64,000 nucleotides of DNA from Marmoricola sp. (lineage in GTDB: Bacteria; Actinomycetota; Actinomycetes; Propionibacteriales; Nocardioidaceae). The DNA lies in contig JAOPXD010000029.1 of NCBI GenBank assembly GCA_025965315.1, positions 19,034 to 83,033 of the forward strand, in the 5' to 3' direction. Made by a program: the position numbers and the translations under genes. Below are positions 708 to 14,684 of this stretch, piece by piece; position 1 is the stretch's first letter, and every line of letters starts with the position of its first letter. Under the pieces are notes generated by a model that worked only from the letters and a program-made list of their open reading frames with translations, was not told where the DNA came from and did not search any database.

Positions 708-911
708 ATGACTGGAAAGCCCGACGAAGTTCCGTCCAAGCGCTTGCTTGCTTGGATACCGCCCTATGAGCTCTGGGACGTCAAGCGGCGACACCGGCTC
801 ATCGCGATGCGGTTCATGGCAGTGCCTTTCGTTAGAGAAGTCAAAAACTACGCCCGACCCCCGACAAGTGAGATGCGCCGCGTCGGGTGGTCATGCGAGC
901 GGGTGAGCTGA
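708..911 (+). CDS. small hypothetical protein (67 aa), overlaps the start of the next ORF
   Basis: ORF track 660..911; ATG at 708; stop TGA 909-911 overlaps ATG at 911. Confidence 0.35.
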   Translation: MTGKPDEVPSKRLLAWIPPYELWDVKRRHRLIAMRFMAVPFVREVKNYARPPTSEMRRVGWSCERVS

Positions 912-1168
912 TGGACAACTCGCCCGCTGACGGAGTACTACTTGAACCCAGGAAGTTGGCGGACCAGAAGGAGGCCAACGTGTTGCTCAGGACACTTGCG
1001 ACCATTCGTGAATCCAGCGGAGCACAACCCACCGTGCGATACGACGAGACCCAGAAGATGAGTTACGTTCAGGAAGGTGGCGCGTGGGTCCCAAGCTTTG
1101 AGTCACATGCGTTCAGTGGGACAAAAAAGGCGGACCTTGAGACGGGCGAGGACCAAAAGGGTCAATGA
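911..1168 (+). CDS. putative ATP-grasp-modified RiPP (graspetide) precursor-like peptide, 85 aa
   Basis: ATG at 911; 'VRYDETQKMSYVQEGGAWVPSFESHAFSGTKKADLETGEDQKGQ' resembles the YD-x3-Q ... G-x-P ... T/D/E-rich tail layout of TgmA-like peptides; ATGA overlap with the ATP-grasp gene. Confidence 0.5.
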   Translation: MDNSPADGVLLEPRKLADQKEANVLLRTLATIRESSGAQPTVRYDETQKMSYVQEGGAWVPSFESHAFSGTKKADLETGEDQKGQ

Positions 1169-2070
1169 CCCAAGCCGAGTCCGGCACAGTTCTGGTTGTC
1201 ACAAACGAGCGTGACTTCGCAGCCGACACAGTCATTGCCTCGGTTCTGGCCCGAGGTTGGAACGTCGAGCGGTGGAACACCGAAACGCATGCAGCCGTCA
1301 GCTGGAGACCGCAGGCCGTGCACGCCACAGACGACTACTCAGCGGTGTGGCTACGACAGTTTCTTGCCGACCCGCTGCCGACTACATCGGTCCGGGAGGT
1401 CGATGACTTCCTAGTGTCGCGTGAACAGTGGCGGACGTGGTTGACCGACCTCGCAGAGGGTCATGCCCGATGGATGAATCCGCTATGGGCTTCCCGTCGA
1501 GCTGAGAACAAGCTCGTACAGCTACGCACCGCCGGTGACGTCGGACTCGCAGTCCCGCCAACACTCGTGACGACCTCGCGTGTTGAGGCCGCCGAGCACC
1601 AGCGGCGCGTGGGTGACTGCGTCGTGAAGGCCCTCGCCAGTGCCTACTTCCCCTTCTCGGACTCAGCATTCATGTTCACTAGGGACCTCGACGCGGCCCT
1701 TAGTCTGGCCGCGGATGAGTGGTCGGACCCAGTCATCGTGCAACGCAAGGTCATGCCTCGTGTCGACGTACGAGTCTTTGTCGTCGGCGGCTTCGTGACT
1801 GGGGCGCGCACGGTGGTTTCGGGCACCGATTGGCGAACTAGCGCCGGTGAAGCGACCTGGGAGCGGCTCCTTGTCCCTGACGACCTTGCGTCCGCTTGCA
1901 AGTCATTGCTCCAACAGCTCGGGCTGGCATACGGCGCGATTGACTTTGCATACGACGGAAGGACGATGTGGTTCCTGGAGTGCAACCAGGCCGGCGAGTT
2001 CGGGTTCGTGGACCGACCGTTAAAACTTGGTGTATCCAACGCGATTGCTGGCTGGCTATGCGCCCGTTGA
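1165..2070 (+). CDS. MvdD/TgmB-like ATP-grasp peptide ligase
   Basis: Pre-ATP-grasp 'AVWLRQFLADP', 'WMNPLWASRRAENKLVQLRTAGDVGLAVPPTLVTT', C-terminal 'DVRVFVVGG', 'GAIDFAYDGRTMWFLECNQAGEFGFVD' as in graspetide synthetases. Confidence 0.82.
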   Translation: MTQAESGTVLVVTNERDFAADTVIASVLARGWNVERWNTETHAAVSWRPQAVHATDDYSAVWLRQFLADPLPTTSVREVDDFLVSREQWRTWLTDLAEGHARWMNPLWASRRAENKLVQLRTAGDVGLAVPPTLVTTSRVEAAEHQRRVGDCVVKALASAYFPFSDSAFMFTRDLDAALSLAADEWSDPVIVQRKVMPRVDVRVFVVGGFVTGARTVVSGTDWRTSAGEATWERLLVPDDLASACKSLLQQLGLAYGAIDFAYDGRTMWFLECNQAGEFGFVDRPLKLGVSNAIAGWLCAR

Positions 2071-2702
2071 CCGCACTCACGCGATTCGGAGCATCGGTCT
2101 GGGGACGGGTGGTCGCAGTCACAAGTTGGACGGTCCACCGTCTGCGTTCGTTGTGGGGCTGGGTCGAGAGCATCGGAACCAAAGCACTCATCCTGCTTCC
2201 CCAGACGCCAATCGCACTGCTCAAAAACCGCACGGTCCGTCGCAACAACGGCGGGAGAAGTGACTCAGCAATAGCAGCGGCCGCAGTCGCTGAGTCGGTG
2301 GATATTGATGCGGCGACGGCGTTGTGGCAGTCCGAAACGGACCGCCTCACCGGGCTGGCAACCAAGGGCGCAGCAGTCTTGGCTGCAGATGCCTTGGTGC
2401 TGACCGGCGTTGTTCAGTTGTCTTCGGATAAGGGCGTGGTGCGAATCATCTTCGTTCTTGCCATCGCCTATCTCCTGTTCGCGATTGTGGCAGCTTGCTT
2501 GGCGCAGCGTCCGATGCCACGTCACGGCGTCACATCGCAGGATGTGCTCGATGGGATAGGCGCGCGAGAGATGGTCATCGCAGTCGAGAAGAACGTGCCC
2601 CTGACCGGCATTATGAACAACCTGGTGAGCGCGAGCTTGAGCGACACACTCGTCTCGCTTTTACTCCTGTTAGCAGCAGTGGTCGTCAAGGTGACGTGTT
2701 GA
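2058..2702 (+). CDS. multi-TM membrane protein (SLATT/2TM-like), 214 aa
   Basis: ATG at 2058 overlaps the ATP-grasp stop by 13 nt; cytosolic 'ALWQSETDRLTGLATKGAAVLAADALVLTGVVQL' then hydrophobic segments and a C-terminal TM. Confidence 0.65.
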   Translation: MRPLTALTRFGASVWGRVVAVTSWTVHRLRSLWGWVESIGTKALILLPQTPIALLKNRTVRRNNGGRSDSAIAAAAVAESVDIDAATALWQSETDRLTGLATKGAAVLAADALVLTGVVQLSSDKGVVRIIFVLAIAYLLFAIVAACLAQRPMPRHGVTSQDVLDGIGAREMVIAVEKNVPLTGIMNNLVSASLSDTLVSLLLLLAAVVVKVTC

Positions 2703-3569: not shown

Positions 3570-5978
3570 TCAAGTTTGTGTTGAGTCGTCAGAGGCAAGA
3601 GTCTCAGCCGGGCGGGCATAGATGAACTCGTCGAGCCCGACGATGACGTTGTACCAATACGCGCGGCCAGCGTTTGGGTACGCGTAAAGGAGGGCCGTCA
3701 GTTCTTCAATGGTCTGACGGGTCTTCAAGCTGTCGAGGGCGGCAATCCGTAGTGCCGTGTCATCGTCATACAAGGCCTCGTGTAGCTCTTCGGTGGTCCG
3801 CTCTGGCTGGCCCGCCCACCACTTCTTCGCCGAACTCGCCATGGAGTCAAGCTCGCTCGCCATCAACGCGTCAGCGACGGCGGGACCAAGCGGTCCGTCG
3901 AGGCTATTGATTGCATACATGAATCCCAAGTCATCGCCGGCGGCGCGCAGAGTCTGCGCAATTCGCGGTAGATGTTGGGAAGACGACCCCAGCCGGTCAA
4001 GCATCGTCCACAACTCTTGGCTCAGGAATGGCTGCCGCTCGATGAAGCTCAGCACTCGCTCGACGTCCGCTCCAGTCAACGCGGCCGACCGCGTCAGGAG
4101 GTCCGCAGCGATGCGACACCGCTCGTTGGCAAGAAAGTCTGCGACCTTCTCATTGCCGTCGAGCTGTTCCAACCAAGCTGCTCTCGAAGCTGCGGCCTCC
4201 GTATCGAGCACATCTCGTGCCTCGTCGAGCATCGCCGCAGGAACGCGGTACGTCAGCGCCTCCCACGCCAGGTTCGAAAGCGCGCTCACCCGGTCGTAGC
4301 CGCGAAGGGTGTCTTCATCGGTAAGCAGAGCCGTCAACTCGGCCTTGTGCCATGACTTCGCTTTGAGCTCTTTATTCTCGTTCAGGATTGCCAGGTATCC
4401 GGCGGCACGCTGCCGGTCTGACCGGGCATCTGTCATGAGCGCTGTGGTGACCTCGGCATTGCCATCAGCGAAAAGGACTCGGACAGTTGCGTCACTCAAA
4501 GTGCCGGCCTCAAGGCCATGACGTACTGCAGCGAGCCGCGCTGCCTTGTTCGACTTCTGGGCAGCGAGCCCGTTGAGGCCGGCTGGGCTGAGATTCGACA
4601 ACCTGGCTTCCAAAACCGCGTTCAGCTGGCTGGCGTGAGTCCCGCTTTCCACCAGACGTGCCAACTGGTCCGGTGCGCCATCGAGTGCATCTCGAACGCT
4701 TTCAAGGATGTCTCGGGTCGCCTCGTTCAGGTCCTCCCCATGGTCCTCGACACGAACTTCGAGGATTGCTCGGATGAGGCGAGTCACCTCGTCGCTGTCG
4801 GGCCCGACGCCAGCGGCGCTTGCGAAAGGTTCTAAGAAGTAGTCGAGAGCGTCGCCTCGGCCTGGTTCGGCATTAAGAACCTCTACCCAAATTACCGGCG
4901 GCAGCGGCCGTTCACCCATGGGCTCGGCGTCGTCGAACTTCCGCCATAATTCTGAAGGATGGATTCCGAGCCGCAGCATCGTTCGAGTCGCCCCGCGCGC
5001 GACTGATGTGTCGGACGAACGGGCGGCATCCATGAGCAACGTCTCGAGGGATTCGCGAATGGGCCCAATCACTGCCCAGCCTGGAATTGTGCGCTGGTGG
5101 AGACTCAAACTACTTCCAACGTCGAACAGAAGCGTGTTCAGCCAGCAGCCGTACTCGGCCTGAACCAAGTCAAGGTCTCCGCGACGTTTGTAGAGGCGGT
5201 TGGCGAGGTGGGCCTGAAGGAAATCGCCATCTTGATTGGCGGCTAACCCAACCAGCGTGAATCGGTCCCAGTCGATTGGCTTCTGAGGCATGTTGCCACG
5301 GACGACGGCCAGGATGTCTTCAAGAACCGTTGCCAGTTGGGTCGACCCTTCCTCAGCGGAAGCGCCGCCATCTGCCACGGCAGTGGGCGTTGGTGCTTGT
5401 GCCGGTTCTGATGGCCCTGCATCAGTGGTGCCCTTGGGTCCACTGTCGCGCTGACCCGAGCTCCGCGCCAACAGCTCACGTACGACAACCATTTGCACTT
5501 TGCGGGCGAGGCTGTCCGTGCTCTCAAACTGGCGAAACATGGCCGACTGCTGGTCCATGATTTTCTGGCGAAACTCCATAACCTGCAGAAGACCTGGCGC
5601 TCCCTCATCGACTACCGCTTTCGGGACGTCGGCGAAAAACAGGCAAATCTTTGGATTTGTGCCGTCATTGGTCCGACGCGCGACCGCGCTCTCGAACTCT
5701 TCTTCGAACCCCGAGGTGAACCCTCCTGTCGGCGTGCCCCAGCGCCGGCTTAGGACCCCGATGAACATGTCGCAGCGCTCGACCATCGGGTTGATGTGCT
5801 CTTGTGGCCGTCCAAAGTCTGGAGGGGTCGTCTCCCACCCGGTAGAGCGAACTCGGATGCCCTTCGACCCAAAGGTGTCGTTGAGTTCTGACTCAAGCGC
5901 GAAGATGGCCTTTCGCTCTGCTAAGACGTCACTCGGTGAAGCTATGAAGACTTCGAGTTCGACGACGTCGCTGGCCAA
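3570..5978 (-). CDS. DUF4062 (TIR-like) N-terminal domain with C-terminal alpha-solenoid/HEAT-like region
   Basis: 'ELEVFIASPSDVLAERKAIFALESELND...VRSTGWETTPPDFGRPQEHINPMVERCDMFIGVLSRRWGTPT' is DUF4062; TTG start with upstream GAGGGG SD; remainder helical repeats. Confidence 0.8.
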   Translation of the reverse strand: MASDVVELEVFIASPSDVLAERKAIFALESELNDTFGSKGIRVRSTGWETTPPDFGRPQEHINPMVERCDMFIGVLSRRWGTPTGGFTSGFEEEFESAVARRTNDGTNPKICLFFADVPKAVVDEGAPGLLQVMEFRQKIMDQQSAMFRQFESTDSLARKVQMVVVRELLARSSGQRDSGPKGTTDAGPSEPAQAPTPTAVADGGASAEEGSTQLATVLEDILAVVRGNMPQKPIDWDRFTLVGLAANQDGDFLQAHLANRLYKRRGDLDLVQAEYGCWLNTLLFDVGSSLSLHQRTIPGWAVIGPIRESLETLLMDAARSSDTSVARGATRTMLRLGIHPSELWRKFDDAEPMGERPLPPVIWVEVLNAEPGRGDALDYFLEPFASAAGVGPDSDEVTRLIRAILEVRVEDHGEDLNEATRDILESVRDALDGAPDQLARLVESGTHASQLNAVLEARLSNLSPAGLNGLAAQKSNKAARLAAVRHGLEAGTLSDATVRVLFADGNAEVTTALMTDARSDRQRAAGYLAILNENKELKAKSWHKAELTALLTDEDTLRGYDRVSALSNLAWEALTYRVPAAMLDEARDVLDTEAAASRAAWLEQLDGNEKVADFLANERCRIAADLLTRSAALTGADVERVLSFIERQPFLSQELWTMLDRLGSSSQHLPRIAQTLRAAGDDLGFMYAINSLDGPLGPAVADALMASELDSMASSAKKWWAGQPERTTEELHEALYDDDTALRIAALDSLKTRQTIEELTALLYAYPNAGRAYWYNVIVGLDEFIYARPAETLASDDSTQT

Positions 5979-6192: not shown

Positions 6193-9100
6193 ATGCGGCG
6201 TTCGCACGCGTTGATGCTGCCCGTTCTGTCGGTGCTGCTCGTCCTTGGGACCGGGGTCGTGATTCCGGCAAGTCTGCCAGCTGCTACGGCGAGCTCCGCC
6301 AAGCCCGCGGTGTCGTCGCGACCCGACGGTGTGTCAGCAATGGAGACGGCGCAGCTGCAAGGTTCGCGCGTCGAGGACGAGTCCCAGCGGACACCTACCA
6401 CTGCCACATATGCGAATCCGGACGGTTCGTGGACGACCATGGCGTACTCAGGAGTGGTTCGCGCCAAGGGTGACGACGACTCGTGGGTGCCAATCGACGC
6501 GTCGGTAACGAAGGACAAGGGTTCGTACGAGCCAAGTGCGACTCCCTTCGACGTCAAGTTCTCGGACGGCGGCGATAAGACAGTCGGCACGGTGAACACG
6601 ACCTCCGACACGTCGGTTGAAGTCGGCTGGCCGACGAAGTTGCCTACACCGGTCGCGAGCGGCGACACCCTCACCTACCCGAATGCCGCCGCGGACTCTA
6701 GCGACCTCGTCGTCACATCCAAGGCCGACGGCTTCGACTACTCGATGGTCCTCGGCAAGGCGCCGGCCGCCGATGACACGCAGGTGGAGTACCGCATCCC
6801 GCTGACCTTCAACGGTGCCGACGTAGCGACGAACGACGACGGGTCGATTGTGCTCAAGGACGGCCGTAACCGGGTCGCGACGTTGACTGCGCCGGTAATG
6901 TGGGACGGGACGGCTGCCAACGCAAACGGAGCCGGTGATACGAAGCCCGTCGACGCAACCGTCGAGGGAACTGGCGATGACCGCACGCTCGTCCTGAAGC
7001 CCAACATGGACTACCTGCGCGACCCGAACACCACCTACCCCGTGACGGTCGACCCGAGCATCGTTATCAACACCGCTGGTGACACGTGGATTCAGTCGTC
7101 GGGGGATACCTCGAGTCAGTACACGTCGCCCGAACTGCACATCGGCTCGAACGACGGCGGGACCACGGTTGCGCGCTCGTTCATCTACTTCGACCTGACC
7201 GGTGTCAGCGCACCGACCGGCACGGTCTTCTCCAGCGCTCAGATGAAGCTGTCGAACTTCGAAACCGGAGCCTGCGCCGGCGCCTCGGTAACTGCTTCGC
7301 GCATTACCAGTGGTTGGACGGTCCCCAGCATCACCTGGGCGACACAGCCGACCGTAATTGCGACTCATGCGGCGTCCAGCACTGACAGTTTCGGCACGAC
7401 GGGTTGTAGTTCTGAAGGAACGATGGCCTTCGACATGACCGGCATGGTCAACGACTGGGGCGGTGGCGCATGGAACGTCGGTGTCCAGGTGAAGGCCGAC
7501 AACGAGACGGCTGCCTCGGGCTACCGCAAGGTCCGCTCGCTTGAGAACGGCGACCTTTCGAAGGTTCCGCAGCTGGTCCTGAACTACAACTCAACGCCTA
7601 GCGTTCCAGCGGCGACGGTTCAGGTTGCGCCGGGCATCACGAATGGCAGCACGGTGTACTCGAACGCGCACCAGCCGGCATTCACGACGTCAGTCAGCGA
7701 CCCAGACGGCGGCAGCGTGACGGCCCAATTCCAGCTCCTGCAGGGCGCAACGGTGGTCGACGACTGGACCAGCGCTTCGGTGCCCTCCGGCAGTGGTGTG
7801 ACGCACACTCCCAGCGCTTCCGTGGCAGATGGCACTTACACGGCCAAGTGGCGCGTCAGTGACGGCACCCTGACGTCGGCTTGGTCGTCCGGACAAGCAG
7901 TCGTCATCGACACTGTCGCGCCAACCGCGCCGTCCATCGACTGCAACGGCGGAACCGGTTACGCCAATAACAGCTGGTCCGGCAGCGGCCCAGCATCAGC
8001 GACGTGCGTGGTGACTACCTCCAGTGACACCGTCTCAATCTCGGCCACCAAGAACGGGGTCGACGCTGGCTTCCCGGCGTTGTCGGGCAATAGCACTTCG
8101 AAGAACTTCAACATCGCTACCAGCGACTACTTCGACATGAGAATGACCGCGTACGACGCGGCCGGCAACAGCAGCTCGACCGTCAAGTACCAGTTCGGGG
8201 TAGCAGGCGGGCTCCTGAACTCGCCGGCGGTCGGTGCGACATCGACGGGGACCTTCCCTTTGAACGCAACGGAACAGTCCGGGGCAACCAACGCAGTTGC
8301 ACAGTGGCGCTTGGCCGGCTCCACAGGGGCCTTCACGACCGCCACGAAGGTCACCAAGGATGGGTCAACCTGGACGGGCTTGCCGACCGATGCAGGAGTT
8401 CTGGGTCAAACTGGCGACCTCGTTTGGGACGCTGCCGCGGAGCCCGGCATTACCGCGCCGTCTAATCTTGAGGTGCGGATTTGCTACAACTACGCGGGGC
8501 CGACGCAGCGCTGCACACCAGCCCGTCAGGTTGGCCTCATCCAGCATGCTTTCGGGGCGAGTTATCCCACCGCAGATGTCGGGCCGGCTTCTGTTGCACT
8601 CATGACCGGCGAGTTTGACATTGACTCAACCGACGTCAACGTACCCGGGTACGCCGATACGTTGAGCATTTCTCGGACCGCTGAGTCCTTCAGCGGGACC
8701 GCTGCATCGCCCGCGCAAGCAGTCTTTGGTCCTGGTTGGATTGCAAACTTTGACGGGCCGAGCATCGGTGCCGCAGCGTCCCAGGTCATCGATAGGTCCG
8801 CGACCAACGGCAGCATCATTTTGGTCGGCCCCGACGGGCAGTCCACGGTCTACAAGACTTCGGGCACGCCAAGCGCTCAAAAGGTCGGGGTCTATGCCGC
8901 GCAAGGTATCGGCGCCAGCTACGACGAGCATCTCGAAATCGTCTCGGGGAGTCCGCTCACCTTGGTCCTAACAGAAGAAGATGGCACTCAGACGACGTGG
9001 AACTACGCGGGGTCGGGAGTATGGAACGTCAAGAACGTGGCTGACTCGTCGGCAGGCGCAGTCCCGGCAATCCGCTACGCGTACACCGGCTCATACCTGA

Positions 9101-12100
9101 CCGGAATCTTCTCCCAGGCGCCCAGCATTACTGACGCTAACTGCTCAGCAACGGTCCAGGTCGCAGGTTGCCGTGCACTCATTTTGAGTTACACCGGCAC
9201 CGGTAGCTCAACTCGCCTGACAGGGGTCGACTTGAAGACATACGACCCGAAGCCTCGTGCCACCGATGGCGGAGTGGCCGGCCAGGAGGCTGGGACCCCC
9301 GGCAGCGGTGCCGGAATGACCAGTGTCCCGGTCGCGAGGTACAGCTACGACACTTCAAACAATCTGGCGAGTGCCTGGGACCCGCGGCTGGACTACAACG
9401 CCGGGGCTAACCATGTCTCGACCAACTACACGTATCAAGGTCCAGCCAGCAAGACGATGCTCGCGTCGCTCACGCCTCCCGGCCAGAAGACCTGGAATTT
9501 CAATGTCGACGGCTCGGGCAGGCTTGACACAGTCACCCGACCTGAAGATGACGCTGTCGGGGGCACCGCGACCTGGAAGGTTAAGTACGGCGTGCCGCTT
9601 TCAGGTACCAGCCTTCCGACTATGACTGCGGCACAGGTTGCCACGTGGGGCGAGACGCAGGTCCCAACGCAGGCTGTCGCCGTTTTCGGGCCGGACGCAC
9701 CGAACTACACGGACTACACCTACGCGGACTTGACCTATTTCAACACCAACGGTCAGACCTTAAACGCTGCCCAGTACGGCGCAGGCGCCTGGCAAATCGA
9801 CACCACGCAGTACGACCCGACCTACGGAAACGTCTCGTGGACCTTGGATGCGACTAACCGCGCTCTCGGCCTGACTAGCTATAACTGGACGGCCTCGGAA
9901 ATCAGCAATGACCTGACAACTCGCTATACCTACAGCTCGGCGGGCGACCGTGTAGAGCAGTTCGTCGGCCCCAATGCCACTGTCGTGTCGAACAACGGAA
10001 CGACGGTGTATGGGCGCAAGCGCGTCGTCTACGACTATGACGACGAGGAGACGGGGAACCCGAGTCTGATTCCTGGACGCCCAGCAACAGACGCGGTACC
10101 GCGACGGAACCTCGTGGTTCAGCAAACGCAATCGCTCGTCGAGCGCACGACTGGCAACGTGTTCGACTCCAAGCAGACCCGCTACTTTTACGACCCAGTT
10201 GTTGCCGGCGATGGAAACGGCTGGACACTGCAGATACCCACACGAATCTCGGTGGGTCTCGCAGGTGGCTGGTCGACCACGGTCAACCGATTCGACGCGC
10301 AGGGCCGCACCATCATGACTCGCTCGCCAGAGGGTGTTGGGGTGAATACCTACACCGCGAACGACACGCGGTCTACCTTCACGACGTACTACGCGTCTGG
10401 AGCGACTGGTCCATCGGTCTGTCAAAACAAGCCTCAGTGGGTCGATGAGGTATGCCAGACGGGACCAGGCGACGGCACTTCTGCGCTTGCATCGACGACG
10501 GCGCCCACCACGAGCGTTACCGGGTACGACTACCTCGGGGACGAAACGCGGTCAGTAGACGTAACTGGTGCAGTCGCAAGGGCGAGCGTGTCGCTGACTG
10601 ACCTTGCTGGTCGGACAACGAAGGAAGCAACCAGCACCACCAACGCCCCGACCGGCGAAACCCCGATTCCTGATACCAGGTACACCTATTACGACAACAC
10701 GGGTCAGTTGTCGACTACCTCGAACGGAACGGCAACTGAAACGAACACGTATGACACGTGGGGGCGCGACCTGACTCAAACGGATGGCAATGGCAACACA
10801 GGAACGACCACGTACGACTCTGCCGACCGGGTCAGAACCTTCAACGATGGCAAGGGCACTTACACCTATACATACGACGGCAATGACGCAGCTGGAAATG
10901 CCGAGCGTCGCGGTCTTGTGACGCAGGTTGATGTCGGCCTCGCGTCCGGCCCGGACGTCTTCCAAGCGGCATATGATGCCGCCGGGGACCAATCCAAGCT
11001 CGTGTATCCCAACGGTGTGTCAGCGAGCAGCGTGTACGACGGCCTGGGGAACCAAATCACCGAGACCTACGCGAGCCCGTCTGGAAGCGCGTTCATGGGC
11101 TTCATTCGGTACTACGACATCGATGGTCGAGCCAAGACGTCTCTGACACCGCTCTCGTACGACACCTATGGCTATGACGAGCGTGGTCGCCTGACTCAGA
11201 CGAATGACCAGGTTTATGGCCAGTGCACCACGCGGGTGTACACCTTCAGCCTTGACTCCGACCGGAGTCAGATGAAGTCCTACGCCCCTGGAAACAACGG
11301 CACCTGTTCAACCGGCACAACAGCGTCAACGACGACTGGCACATTCGATGCCGACGACAAGAAGGCCGGCGATACATATGACGCGACAGGTCGCACCACG
11401 ACTCTGCAAGCTTCGGACACCGCTTCTCCGAGTGATGGTTCGGTCAACATCAGTTACTACGCCAACGACATGGTCGCTAGTCTTTCGCAGCCAAGCGCTA
11501 CCGGTGGGGCGGCTGCAAAGTCTTACGGTCTCGACGTTTCGGGCCGATTGTCGACGATGAGTTCGACGACCGCGGGAGTCGAGCTGCGAAAGACTGTCAA
11601 CCATTACGTGGACGACTCGGATTCGCCGGCTTGGTCGAGCGAGGACACCCGTCCGAACGGAAGTGCAGGATGGACCTCCAAATGGTCCCGGTATGTCGAG
11701 GACCCTTCTGGTGACCTGGGCCTGATTCAAAGTTCAGACGGGACGAGCCAGTTGCAACTCACCAACATGCACGGGGACGTGGTGGCAACCCTGCCAAACA
11801 CGACCACATTCAACGGATTGCAGAACTACAGCGAATCGACCGAATACGGCTCCGCCCGTACGACGACGCCTGCCCTAAATCAGTCGTATACCTGGCTCGG
11901 GGCGAAGCGACGGTCGAGCGATTCACTCGATTCCATCGTGCTAATGGGGTCCCGGCTGTACAACCCGACGACAGGGCGATTCTTGAGTCGCGACCCGATT
12001 CCTTGCGGGAACGACAACACCTACACCTACCCCGTCGACCCGATAAACCTTTACGACACGAGCGGCCAGAACACGAGTATGGGCGATGGGGGAGGGGTTG

Positions 12101-12450
12101 CGCCGCCTCCAAGGAGGAGTCACTCGAGTCGCAGTAAGGCCAAGAGTATTGCTTGCGGAGCTGTGGGCGCCCTCTCATACAGGGGAGACATTCGCGCCTT
12201 GAATGAAGCGGCTCACGGACACATCAAGAGGGCGCTGAGGGACGAGGTAGGCGCGGCGGCCGAGAACAAGGGCAAGCAGGTTGCTGTGAAAGGCATCGTG
12301 AAAACCCACCACCGCTTCTTTGGCGGTGGTCTGCATACCCTGCTGAAAAGGAGTGCCAGGCTTTCGAAGCTCGCGGCGAAGGGTGCTGAAAAGTTGGGCT
12401 CATCTGAGGCGTCACTGTTCGCGACCGCATTGGACTACGGGTTCTGTTGA
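6193..12450 (+). CDS. secreted DNRLRE/RHS (YD-repeat) polymorphic-toxin-like protein
   Basis: signal peptide 'MRRSHALMLPVLSVLLVLGTGVV'; DNRLRE-like 'DTWIQSSGDTSSQYTSPELHIGSNDGGTTVARSFIYFDL'; many YD repeats; core-end 'GSRLYNPTTGRFLSRDPI'. Confidence 0.92.
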   Translation: MRRSHALMLPVLSVLLVLGTGVVIPASLPAATASSAKPAVSSRPDGVSAMETAQLQGSRVEDESQRTPTTATYANPDGSWTTMAYSGVVRAKGDDDSWVPIDASVTKDKGSYEPSATPFDVKFSDGGDKTVGTVNTTSDTSVEVGWPTKLPTPVASGDTLTYPNAAADSSDLVVTSKADGFDYSMVLGKAPAADDTQVEYRIPLTFNGADVATNDDGSIVLKDGRNRVATLTAPVMWDGTAANANGAGDTKPVDATVEGTGDDRTLVLKPNMDYLRDPNTTYPVTVDPSIVINTAGDTWIQSSGDTSSQYTSPELHIGSNDGGTTVARSFIYFDLTGVSAPTGTVFSSAQMKLSNFETGACAGASVTASRITSGWTVPSITWATQPTVIATHAASSTDSFGTTGCSSEGTMAFDMTGMVNDWGGGAWNVGVQVKADNETAASGYRKVRSLENGDLSKVPQLVLNYNSTPSVPAATVQVAPGITNGSTVYSNAHQPAFTTSVSDPDGGSVTAQFQLLQGATVVDDWTSASVPSGSGVTHTPSASVADGTYTAKWRVSDGTLTSAWSSGQAVVIDTVAPTAPSIDCNGGTGYANNSWSGSGPASATCVVTTSSDTVSISATKNGVDAGFPALSGNSTSKNFNIATSDYFDMRMTAYDAAGNSSSTVKYQFGVAGGLLNSPAVGATSTGTFPLNATEQSGATNAVAQWRLAGSTGAFTTATKVTKDGSTWTGLPTDAGVLGQTGDLVWDAAAEPGITAPSNLEVRICYNYAGPTQRCTPARQVGLIQHAFGASYPTADVGPASVALMTGEFDIDSTDVNVPGYADTLSISRTAESFSGTAASPAQAVFGPGWIANFDGPSIGAAASQVIDRSATNGSIILVGPDGQSTVYKTSGTPSAQKVGVYAAQGIGASYDEHLEIVSGSPLTLVLTEEDGTQTTWNYAGSGVWNVKNVADSSAGAVPAIRYAYTGSYLTGIFSQAPSITDANCSATVQVAGCRALILSYTGTGSSTRLTGVDLKTYDPKPRATDGGVAGQEAGTPGSGAGMTSVPVARYSYDTSNNLASAWDPRLDYNAGANHVSTNYTYQGPASKTMLASLTPPGQKTWNFNVDGSGRLDTVTRPEDDAVGGTATWKVKYGVPLSGTSLPTMTAAQVATWGETQVPTQAVAVFGPDAPNYTDYTYADLTYFNTNGQTLNAAQYGAGAWQIDTTQYDPTYGNVSWTLDATNRALGLTSYNWTASEISNDLTTRYTYSSAGDRVEQFVGPNATVVSNNGTTVYGRKRVVYDYDDEETGNPSLIPGRPATDAVPRRNLVVQQTQSLVERTTGNVFDSKQTRYFYDPVVAGDGNGWTLQIPTRISVGLAGGWSTTVNRFDAQGRTIMTRSPEGVGVNTYTANDTRSTFTTYYASGATGPSVCQNKPQWVDEVCQTGPGDGTSALASTTAPTTSVTGYDYLGDETRSVDVTGAVARASVSLTDLAGRTTKEATSTTNAPTGETPIPDTRYTYYDNTGQLSTTSNGTATETNTYDTWGRDLTQTDGNGNTGTTTYDSADRVRTFNDGKGTYTYTYDGNDAAGNAERRGLVTQVDVGLASGPDVFQAAYDAAGDQSKLVYPNGVSASSVYDGLGNQITETYASPSGSAFMGFIRYYDIDGRAKTSLTPLSYDTYGYDERGRLTQTNDQVYGQCTTRVYTFSLDSDRSQMKSYAPGNNGTCSTGTTASTTTGTFDADDKKAGDTYDATGRTTTLQASDTASPSDGSVNISYYANDMVASLSQPSATGGAAAKSYGLDVSGRLSTMSSTTAGVELRKTVNHYVDDSDSPAWSSEDTRPNGSAGWTSKWSRYVEDPSGDLGLIQSSDGTSQLQLTNMHGDVVATLPNTTTFNGLQNYSESTEYGSARTTTPALNQSYTWLGAKRRSSDSLDSIVLMGSRLYNPTTGRFLSRDPIPCGNDNTYTYPVDPINLYDTSGQNTSMGDGGGVAPPPRRSHSSRSKAKSIACGAVGALSYRGDIRALNEAAHGHIKRALRDEVGAAAENKGKQVAVKGIVKTHHRFFGGGLHTLLKRSARLSKLAAKGAEKLGSSEASLFATALDYGFC

Positions 12451-12743
12451 CCTTCCCACATGACGACGATGACAGCATGACCTTCTGGGGTCGAATTCGA
12501 GCCTACGCCCGCTGGCGTTGGGATTCAGAAAACATGGTCACCAGTCTCCGTGGTTCGATTCTGATAATTACCCTGACCGGCCTGGTTGTGATTGGGCGAG
12601 GCCTAGTCAAGGGCGAGCCCGGCAGTGTTGGCGCGGGATTCTTGTTCTTCGCAATCGCTGCTTGGTTGTTTTTCGGTGACTGGGGCCTGACCTACTGGTT
12701 CCCCACCGTACGTAAATGGTGGCACGATAGACGCCGCCACTGA
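12447..12743 (+). CDS. small two-TM membrane protein, candidate immunity protein for the RHS tip
   Basis: TTG start overlaps the RHS stop by 4 nt (ATG option at 12477); 'SILIITLTGLVVIGRGLV' and 'VGAGFLFFAIAAWLFFGDWGL'. Confidence 0.55.
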   Translation: MTFPHDDDDSMTFWGRIRAYARWRWDSENMVTSLRGSILIITLTGLVVIGRGLVKGEPGSVGAGFLFFAIAAWLFFGDWGLTYWFPTVRKWWHDRRRH

Positions 12744-13126: not shown

Positions 13127-13566
13127 TTCCATCCCGGCCGCGGCCGCATTTGCACGCCAACACTAAGAAGATGGCTGCGGACGTGCTTCGCACTCACCTT
13201 GTATCTATCTGCCAGGGACTGCAGTGATGCACCTGCCTCATAGCGGCGGGCAGCGTCTTCGACTTGAGAAGCACCGAGTCCCTGGTTGCGAATCGTGACG
13301 CCAGCTTCACGGAGCGTTCGCAGCACGGTTCCTTTGCCCAGGTTGTAGTCCTGCATGAGTTGGTTGCTGGAAGTGCCGGCTTCGTAGTCGGCAACCATCT
13401 GGGCTCGTACCTCAGGAGTGAACCGTTGGTCCAGCTTGTGACGAATCGGTCCTTCTGTAGCTACTTCTAGGAGTCGAACCTGACTCTGACTAACTGCCCG
13501 GATGGCTCGACGGAGGTCATCCCAAGCGCTTGCTTGTTTCCTATAGCGTCCTATGAGCTCCACCAA
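13114..13566 (-). CDS. helix-turn-helix protein (Hin/recombinase-type HTH)
   Basis: two HTH-like segments 'AQMVADYEAGTSSNQLMQDYNLGKGTVLRTLREAGV' and 'DAARRYEAGASLQSLADRYKVSAKHVRSHL'. Confidence 0.65.
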   Translation of the reverse strand: MVELIGRYRKQASAWDDLRRAIRAVSQSQVRLLEVATEGPIRHKLDQRFTPEVRAQMVADYEAGTSSNQLMQDYNLGKGTVLRTLREAGVTIRNQGLGASQVEDAARRYEAGASLQSLADRYKVSAKHVRSHLLSVGVQMRPRPGWNYDA

Positions 13567-13590
13567 GGGCCGCCCTCCGGGGCGGCTTTC
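13565..13590. terminator. putative hairpin terminator
   Basis: agggccgccctccggggcggctttctgg: GCCGCCC/GGGGCGGC stem followed by a T-rich stretch. Confidence 0.4.
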
Positions 13591-13611
13591 TGGTTTCAGC
13601 CCGGCACCGGC

Positions 13612-13776
13612 TCAGTGCGGGAGGTGCACCACCCCGGTCTCGATCTGGCTCAGGTCTCCGTCTCCACCGATCTCCTCGGGGGTCGGACCGGTGGTCCCTG
13701 CCGCCTTGTCGGCCGAGGCCGGTGCGTCGGGGGTCTCGTCCTGCTCGTCACGGTGGCCAGATGATTCAGTGCTCAT
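13612..13776 (-). CDS. small acidic hypothetical protein (54 aa)
   Basis: 'MSTESSGHRDEQDETPDAPASADKAAGTTGPTPEEIGGDGDLSQIETGVVHLPH'; ATG at 13776. Confidence 0.45.
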   Translation of the reverse strand: MSTESSGHRDEQDETPDAPASADKAAGTTGPTPEEIGGDGDLSQIETGVVHLPH

Positions 13777-13931
13777 GGCGCCGCATCCTGGGGGTCGGCG
13801 GACTGAAATTGCTCGCAGAGGGTCCACGACTGGTCCAGTCGCCCACCCGAAACTTGGGAGGATGGGGTGGGCGACCAGGATGGAGTGTGGACCACCGACC
13901 GACCTGTACCCCGGGCCCGGCTCCCTATTCA

Positions 13932-14684
13932 TCAAGCTGCCGGCGTCACCAGGTCGCTGCTGGTCGGAACGGCAATCGAGACCGGCTTGCCCCACCGCGT
14001 CAGGTTGACGATCGTGTGCTGGCCGTCGACGGTCGCGGTGATCCGGCGGAGCAGGTTGCCGGAGTCGACGTAGAACTCGAAGGTCATCAGTTCTGAGATT
14101 CCGCTGCTGCCCATCAGCACTCGGAAGGCTCCGGTTGCTTTCGTCGGATCGACCACCAGCCGGTACGCCGACAGCCCGTTGCTGTTCTTCGCCTTGTCCT
14201 TGGTCGCCGACACGATGCCCTTGCCGAATCCGGCCACCGAGTCGTGCGGGCCGATGTTGGTGAAGGTGCGCAGCAGGCTTCCGTAGCTCGGGTCGTTCTT
14301 GCCGATCATCAGGAACTTCCCGCCCGGACCCTGCTGGACGTAGACGATGCCGCGCGCCACGACGAACATCGTGCGGTGCCGGTTCTCGGTCCCGCGAGCC
14401 TCGATCGTGGTCGGCCCGGCGCCGTAGCTGATGTCGGCGGCGCCCGAACCCATCGGGCCGGAACTGACCGTGATGTGCACGCTGGTCTTGCTGTCGATCG
14501 CCGACAGCAGGTTCCGGACGAAGGTGGCCTTCGTCGTACCGGACTGGGTTCCCGCGGTTACCGACACGGAGGTCGGCGAGCCCGACGGCTTGTCCAGCGC
14601 GGCGGGCTGGTGAGCACCGCACCCGGCGACGAACAGGAGCGATCCCGTTGCGGCGACGACAGCAACACGGCGGAAGTGGGTCAT
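13932..14684 (-). CDS. secreted lipoprotein (LppX/LprAFG-like)
   Basis: lipobox 'LLFVAGCG'; 'SVHITVSSG...' and 'YRLVVDPTKATGAF...GISELMTFEFYVDSGNLLRRITATVDGQ'; ATG at 14684. Confidence 0.7.
   Translation of the reverse strand: MTHFRRVAVVAATGSLLFVAGCGAHQPAALDKPSGSPTSVSVTAGTQSGTTKATFVRNLLSAIDSKTSVHITVSSGPMGSGAADISYGAGPTTIEARGTENRHRTMFVVARGIVYVQQGPGGKFLMIGKNDPSYGSLLRTFTNIGPHDSVAGFGKGIVSATKDKAKNSNGLSAYRLVVDPTKATGAFRVLMGSSGISELMTFEFYVDSGNLLRRITATVDGQHTIVNLTRWGKPVSIAVPTSSDLVTPAA

Follow-up and report, generated by a model that had tools for sequence, protein, structure and literature searches.

We analysed a 64,000-nucleotide stretch of DNA from a Marmoricola sp. genome (hereafter, the window), in which genes for a small peptide, an ATP-grasp ligase and a protein with three transmembrane (TM) segments follow one another on the same strand. 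The features of this locus are as follows:

708-911, + strand: ORF1, ORF coordinates confirmed; not a member of the cassette.
911-1168, + strand: longer alternative of ORF2, an earlier reading that starts at ATG 911.
966-974, + strand: likely ribosome-binding site of the peptide gene, AGAAGGAGG, read in the sequence.
980-1168, + strand: putative precursor peptide gene (62 aa, GTG start), with Shine-Dalgarno AGAAGGAGG 5 nt upstream; relatives of 62-66 aa start here.
1121-1165, + strand: putative modification core TKKADLETGEDQKGQ at the peptide C-terminus; [TS]KKxDxETGEDQKG is invariant across relatives.
1165-2070, + strand: ORF3, graspetide-synthetase-type ATP-grasp ligase, 301 aa (TIGR04187 1.3e-45, TIGR04185 1.4e-36; predicted structure).
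2058-2702, + strand: ORF4, three-TM partner and putative membrane effector, 214 aa; family kept in cassettes (PADLOC PycTM E 0.0013).

The initial annotation had described four chained ORFs forming one operon. All of its coordinates held, as did the ATGA overlap of ORF2 and ORF3 at 1165-1168 and the 13-nt overlap of ORF3 and ORF4 at 2058-2070, but the shared stop and start codons (TGA/ATG) at 909-911 probably have no meaning. Alignment showed that relatives of ORF2 are 62-66 amino acids long and begin at the position that corresponds to window residue ~24. Because of this shared start, and because AGAAGGAGG precedes GTG 980, we took the peptide gene as 980-1168; judging from the sequence, its true start is probably GTG 980 and not ATG 911. 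ORF1 shares a local similarity of 32 residues with the DUF262 protein upstream. No fetched locus outside its own genome contained a counterpart and tblastn matched only the window's own contig, so we rejected ORF1 as a cassette component, and the proposed operon loses its first gene. The remaining ORF2, ORF3 and ORF4 are a real recurring cassette of a small peptide, a graspetide-type ligase and a three-TM protein, and the predicted order of peptide, ATP-grasp ligase and TM gene was found in many relatives and is therefore not due to chance.

ORF3 matched TIGR04187 with 155.9 bits (E 1.3e-45; the model cut-off of 350 bits was not reached) and also matched TIGR04185 (E 1.4e-36) and TIGR04184, all three under their curated cut-offs; matches to these models were found in 17/17 cassette ligases. 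A profile built from 17 relatives matched AMdnB, MdnB, MdnC, CdnC and PsnB in the PDB. The predicted structure of ORF3 (pLDDT 82, pTM 0.83) had as its nearest PDB folds PruB (9bou, E 6.5e-23), AMdnB, CdnC, PsnB and MdnC, and K155, D201-x-R203 and E272-x-N274 were invariant in the ligase alignment. The earlier description of ORF3 as MvdD/TgmB-like is thus borne out both by the TgmB, MvdC and MvdD models and by a modelled fold resembling PruB and MdnC, and sequence and model together firmly place ORF3 in the graspetide-synthetase family. The locus therefore contains the ATP-grasp ligase of the synthetase family that is expected of a graspetide system. PADLOC defence models gave no match to the ligase at E<=0.01.

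The C-terminal tail of the peptide, [TS]KKxDxETGEDQKG, is invariant in 14 aligned peptides and in a fifteenth on a Xenorhabdus bovienii plasmid, where the ligase is shortened beside an insertion sequence. The 14 came from the window, N. marmoriginsengisoli, Knoellia locipacati, another family member, Ilumatobacteraceae and Acidimicrobiia, from a Mu-like phage contig in IMG/VR, and from plasmids of Rhizobium, Azospirillum, Martelella, R. ruizarguesonis, A. tumefaciens and Mesorhizobium, so that one tail spans Actinomycetota, Alpha- and Gammaproteobacteria and a Mu-like phage. Synonymous variants occur at every invariant tail codon, with a mean of 6.4 synonymous differences per pair over 14 codons, which indicates that the tail is maintained by selection on the protein. 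Ligase identity to the window's ORF3 falls to about 28-30% within the same set. The actinobacterial and proteobacterial branches of these ligases were grouped in 26% of bootstraps when long branches were removed; in a fuller tree they were joined at 82/95, together with L004.

The peptide also has the make-up of a precursor adjacent to its ligase, with a leader of conserved layout, Thr/Ser/Lys donors and Asp/Glu acceptors. The initial annotation had noted that the C-terminus supplies Thr, Asp, Glu and Lys; this was correct but understated, as the tail is strictly conserved and not just rich in these residues. The annotation had also named a poorly conserved ORF2 beside a well-conserved ORF3 as grounds for abandoning its proposal, and we found the reverse, with the ORF2 tail better conserved than ORF3. 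The proposal of a precursor beside its ligase is thus strengthened by a putative substrate that is conserved in relatives. The HMM search that it suggested for ORF2 came back empty: no NCBIfam model, the TgmA-type TIGR04186 included, matched at E<=1. A search of 396 genomes of the class found the tail pattern in the own genome only, and the open literature yielded no instance of the exact tail sequence. The lack of HMM matches to ORF2 could be taken to mean that it is spurious and that the neighbouring genes are unrelated. This reading is vanishingly improbable given the conserved tail and its synonymous variation, and the recurring gene order already refutes it.

The order of peptide, ligase and TM gene recurs in Nocardioides (the matching locus is that of N. 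marmoriginsengisoli, L014), Knoellia, Ilumatobacteraceae and Acidimicrobiia, and on rhizobial and Azospirillum plasmids; in the Mu-like phage the cassette lies between G-like and I-like head genes. A sister set of loci shares the three-gene order, the leader layout and the TM family, but its precursors carry several repeated TKTxxxxE(S/R)DD cores rather than a single invariant tail. Plasmids of Agrobacterium, Sinorhizobium, Croceicoccus and P. aeruginosa carry such loci, as do a gut phage record, a Leptospira phage, IMG/VR contigs (four clear cases and one weak) and two E. coli strains, Ceylon31 and ZH177 (2/5,426 genomes). In Ceylon31 (L129:4341-9862) the cassette, with its genes at 7757-9862, comes directly after the hxsDBCA genes of a His-Xaa-Ser radical-SAM system, and genes for SIR2, UvrD and a HerA helicase are in the surroundings. 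Among IMG/VR relatives of the ligase, five loci carry the TM gene and several others carry a downstream methyltransferase-like gene instead, so the two look like alternative third genes. The Nocardioidaceae contain more ligase-TM pairs (L006, L007 and L012), two of them with other precursors. In L006 and L007, tandem small precursors with ETxDxDR ends precede a further ATP-grasp ligase, which is accompanied by a TM protein. A different graspetide-type ligase (L008:1039-3017) has two similar peptides ahead of it and is followed by a serine-dehydrogenase-proteinase-like gene.

Several loci are naturally broken. In A. tumefaciens cl001 (L128), a recent TM gene is intact, whereas an insertion has deleted the peptide gene and the larger part of the ligase gene. 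In Martelella it is the TM gene that is frameshifted, next to a peptide and a ligase that are kept, and the ligase of Mesorhizobium is interrupted by an insertion. Among the broken copies, L116 is truncated and has a TM gene but no ligase, and L107 has a ligase and peptide with a broken TM gene. These cases suggest that neither half is obviously lethal alone, though the genes there may be unexpressed.

ORF4 has three hydrophobic segments at about residues 102-120, 130-148 and 192-210, a pattern that recurs in its family, and the alignment of 18 cassette TM proteins showed an invariant R and K directly ahead of the first segment. The initial annotation was right that the third gene encodes a multi-TM protein where a methyltransferase might be expected, and the same is true in relatives. 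A profile of the family had four hits in 398 genomes of the phylum, of which three were true: the own genome, one taken as the L104 locus, and one additional ATP-grasp neighbour. All three adjoin an ATP-grasp gene, and among the sampled genomes the family is restricted to such loci. The fourth, a weak match in G889, is a UppP-like ORF with no adjoining ligase, and we counted it as a false positive. The distances between ligases and those between their TM proteins are correlated (r=0.91, permutation p=0.0002), a correlation that shared descent also raises.

To name the TM protein from Pfam proved impossible, because Pfam gave no usable match, and no match to its PycTM entry, and we abandoned this route. 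PADLOC models matched the family, those for PycTM most commonly (best E 3e-5; window protein E 0.0013), although the three PycTM models matched only 4, 4 and 2 of the 18 TM proteins, a minority, and weakly. In a ranking by the TM profile, with 108 ORFs of 2-5 TM segments from outside the cassettes as background, the TM protein of a graspetide locus on a B. thuringiensis plasmid came first, all four Pfam PycTM proteins followed at second, third, fourth and sixth place, and another ATP-grasp-linked TM protein came fifth. An hhalign comparison of the family with PycTM was weak (probability 14%, E 0.002), the PDB profile search gave matches at chance level, and the structure model of the TM protein (pLDDT 65) contained low-confidence helices for which Foldseek returned no match. 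We regard kinship of the TM family to PycTM as likely, although the resemblance is weak. PycTM proteins have been reported to form membrane pores (PMC11224242).

Third-position GC is 0.63-0.73 in genes around the cassette and 0.84-0.93 beyond about 14 kb, which indicates that the cassette lies in an acquired island; a sharp rise at about 13500-14000 of the window, from 0.65-0.75 to 0.85-0.93, marks its edge. The island contains a type II methyltransferase, a DUF262/GmrSD protein, an AAA protein, a DUF4062 gene and a conjugation-type ATPase. The ATPase is TrwB-like (L126:4353-6515), and the island could therefore be an integrative element. The region immediately upstream of the cassette (L126:17189-18346 and L001:16-981, which runs to window 645) contains the DUF262/GmrSD-like gene, which matches PADLOC NsnA, and after it an AAA/OLD-like gene with NsnB and HEC-04 matches; these two are probably a separate defence pair. 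In the window, the DUF4062 protein (3570-5978, - strand; 802 aa) matches PADLOC PDC-S60, and a 2085-aa YD/RHS-like protein (6193-12450, + strand) has a signal peptide and is polymorphic-toxin-like; a small membrane ORF behind it (12447-12743) could be its immunity gene.

The neighbours of related cassettes include, among the matches listed, LmuA (Lamassu), AbiEi/ii, pAgo, Dsr1, restriction-modification, PDC-M01 and AbiJ, and those of Streptomyces TgmB control loci include, again among the matches listed, kinase-like PD-T4-6 and mads models; this is a side-by-side comparison of lists with a single-taxon control, and PADLOC includes generic families. Some cassettes have no defence neighbour: the flanks of L113 include amino-acid transport genes, and several large ORFs tested in the vicinity of L015 and L106 had no PADLOC match. 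In agreement with the initial annotation, we found neither an exporter nor a leader peptidase at the cassettes, and in the plasmid, phage and E. coli loci no neighbour of the cassette is annotated as a RiPP-type peptidase or ABC exporter. For the conflict or defence role that the annotation had proposed, the support is circumstantial (phage and plasmid carriage, defence neighbours and a weak resemblance to PycTM) and not functional.

The cassette resembles three known systems in part. The TgmABC (graspimiditide) loci of Streptomyces have a ligase of the same family, at about 35% identity, and a small precursor directly upstream; however, the cassette and its relatives have a TM protein in place of the PIMT-like methyltransferase (tgmC), and the tail is unrelated, in keeping with an ORF2 that no NCBIfam model matches. 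Thuringinin-type and related multi-core loci (clusters 13 and 18 in PMC8939145) likewise combine a ligase, a precursor and an uncharacterised multi-TM protein, and outside the cassettes our TM profile matches the TM protein of the B. thuringiensis plasmid best, but they have repeated cores and another gene order, and the relation of their TM proteins to the cassette family is weak. The B. thuringiensis plasmid locus (L123:4737-7395) has a PH-domain-fused ligase, a TM protein and a thuringinin-type repeated precursor. To the PycTM of Pycsar (PycC and PycTM) the TM partner bears a weak resemblance, in an R/K motif before a TM hairpin and a third TM segment later, whereas the cassettes have a peptide ligase instead of an adjoining nucleotide cyclase; no PycC was found among their annotated or profiled neighbours.

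Our best reading, plausible though short of probable, is that the cassette is a graspetide-type module whose cyclised peptide acts inside the cell to control a membrane effector, probably in conflict with phages or between mobile elements. We base it on the conserved tail, the lack of processing and export genes, the co-diverging membrane partner and the mobile, defence-rich homes of the cassette. The ligase would use ATP to join Lys/Thr to Glu/Asp side chains within the conserved C-terminal tail. The cyclised peptide would stay in the cell rather than being exported, and would bind and set the state of the three-TM protein, its only linked partner. Detection of an infection or of another invading element would lead the TM protein to perturb the inner membrane and growth would stop, an abortive-infection logic like that of Pycsar or CBASS with a peptide in place of the nucleotide.

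The main rival, somewhat unlikely in our view, is that this is an ordinary secreted graspetide, exported as an antimicrobial or signal, with the TM protein as exporter or self-immunity protein. Small three-TM proteins can have roles that include bacteriocin immunity. Most characterised graspetides are regarded as RiPP natural products, and the membrane proteins encoded at thuringinin loci were guessed to act in transport (PMC8939145). On the other hand, about three TM segments are few for an exporter, the plasmid, phage and E. coli copies lack the annotated peptidase or ABC exporter already mentioned, the tail is invariant, in contrast to diversified cores, and phages and defence islands carry the cassette.

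An invariant ligand would also fit a guard arrangement, in which a constitutive cyclised peptide keeps the TM effector inactive until a phage interferes with either peptide or ligase and so frees it; Panoptes, with cyclic nucleotides and a 2-TM effector, is a precedent (PMC12657218). We consider this quite unlikely, as the intact TM gene of A. tumefaciens cl001 survives where the peptide is gone and the ligase is largely deleted, although it may be unexpressed. In a further alternative, the modified peptide would assemble with the TM protein in a non-lethal membrane role, such as superinfection exclusion or envelope-stress control; carriage by phages or prophages is what might be expected of exclusion genes. 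Envelope-stress genes are not linked to the cassette and nothing specific favours this alternative, which we judge improbable.

Some cassette loci may already be listed in published surveys (PMC8939145, PMC13097080), and the TKTxxxxE(S/R)DD loci possibly fall within the graspetide groups whose proteins match no HMM (PMC13097080). The invariant-tail subtype, the likely nature of the TM family and the association with phages and defence appear to be new. Makarova et al. 2022 (PMC8939145) guessed transport for the membrane proteins of cluster 18 and left membrane cluster 40 unexplained, and membrane proteins of graspetide loci have so far been transport candidates or unexplained. More tentatively than the reading of the cassette itself, it is possible that these loci, thuringinin-type loci included, belong to a class of immune systems on plasmids, phages and defence islands, in which a ribosomal peptide cyclised by an ATP-grasp ligase replaces the cyclic nucleotide and switches a PycTM-like effector. 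To our knowledge, the functions of most graspetides are not known. A tail that is invariant across phyla, a single membrane family and carriage by phages and defence islands suggest an intracellular role, and if this is true, modified peptides would join the signals of bacterial immunity.
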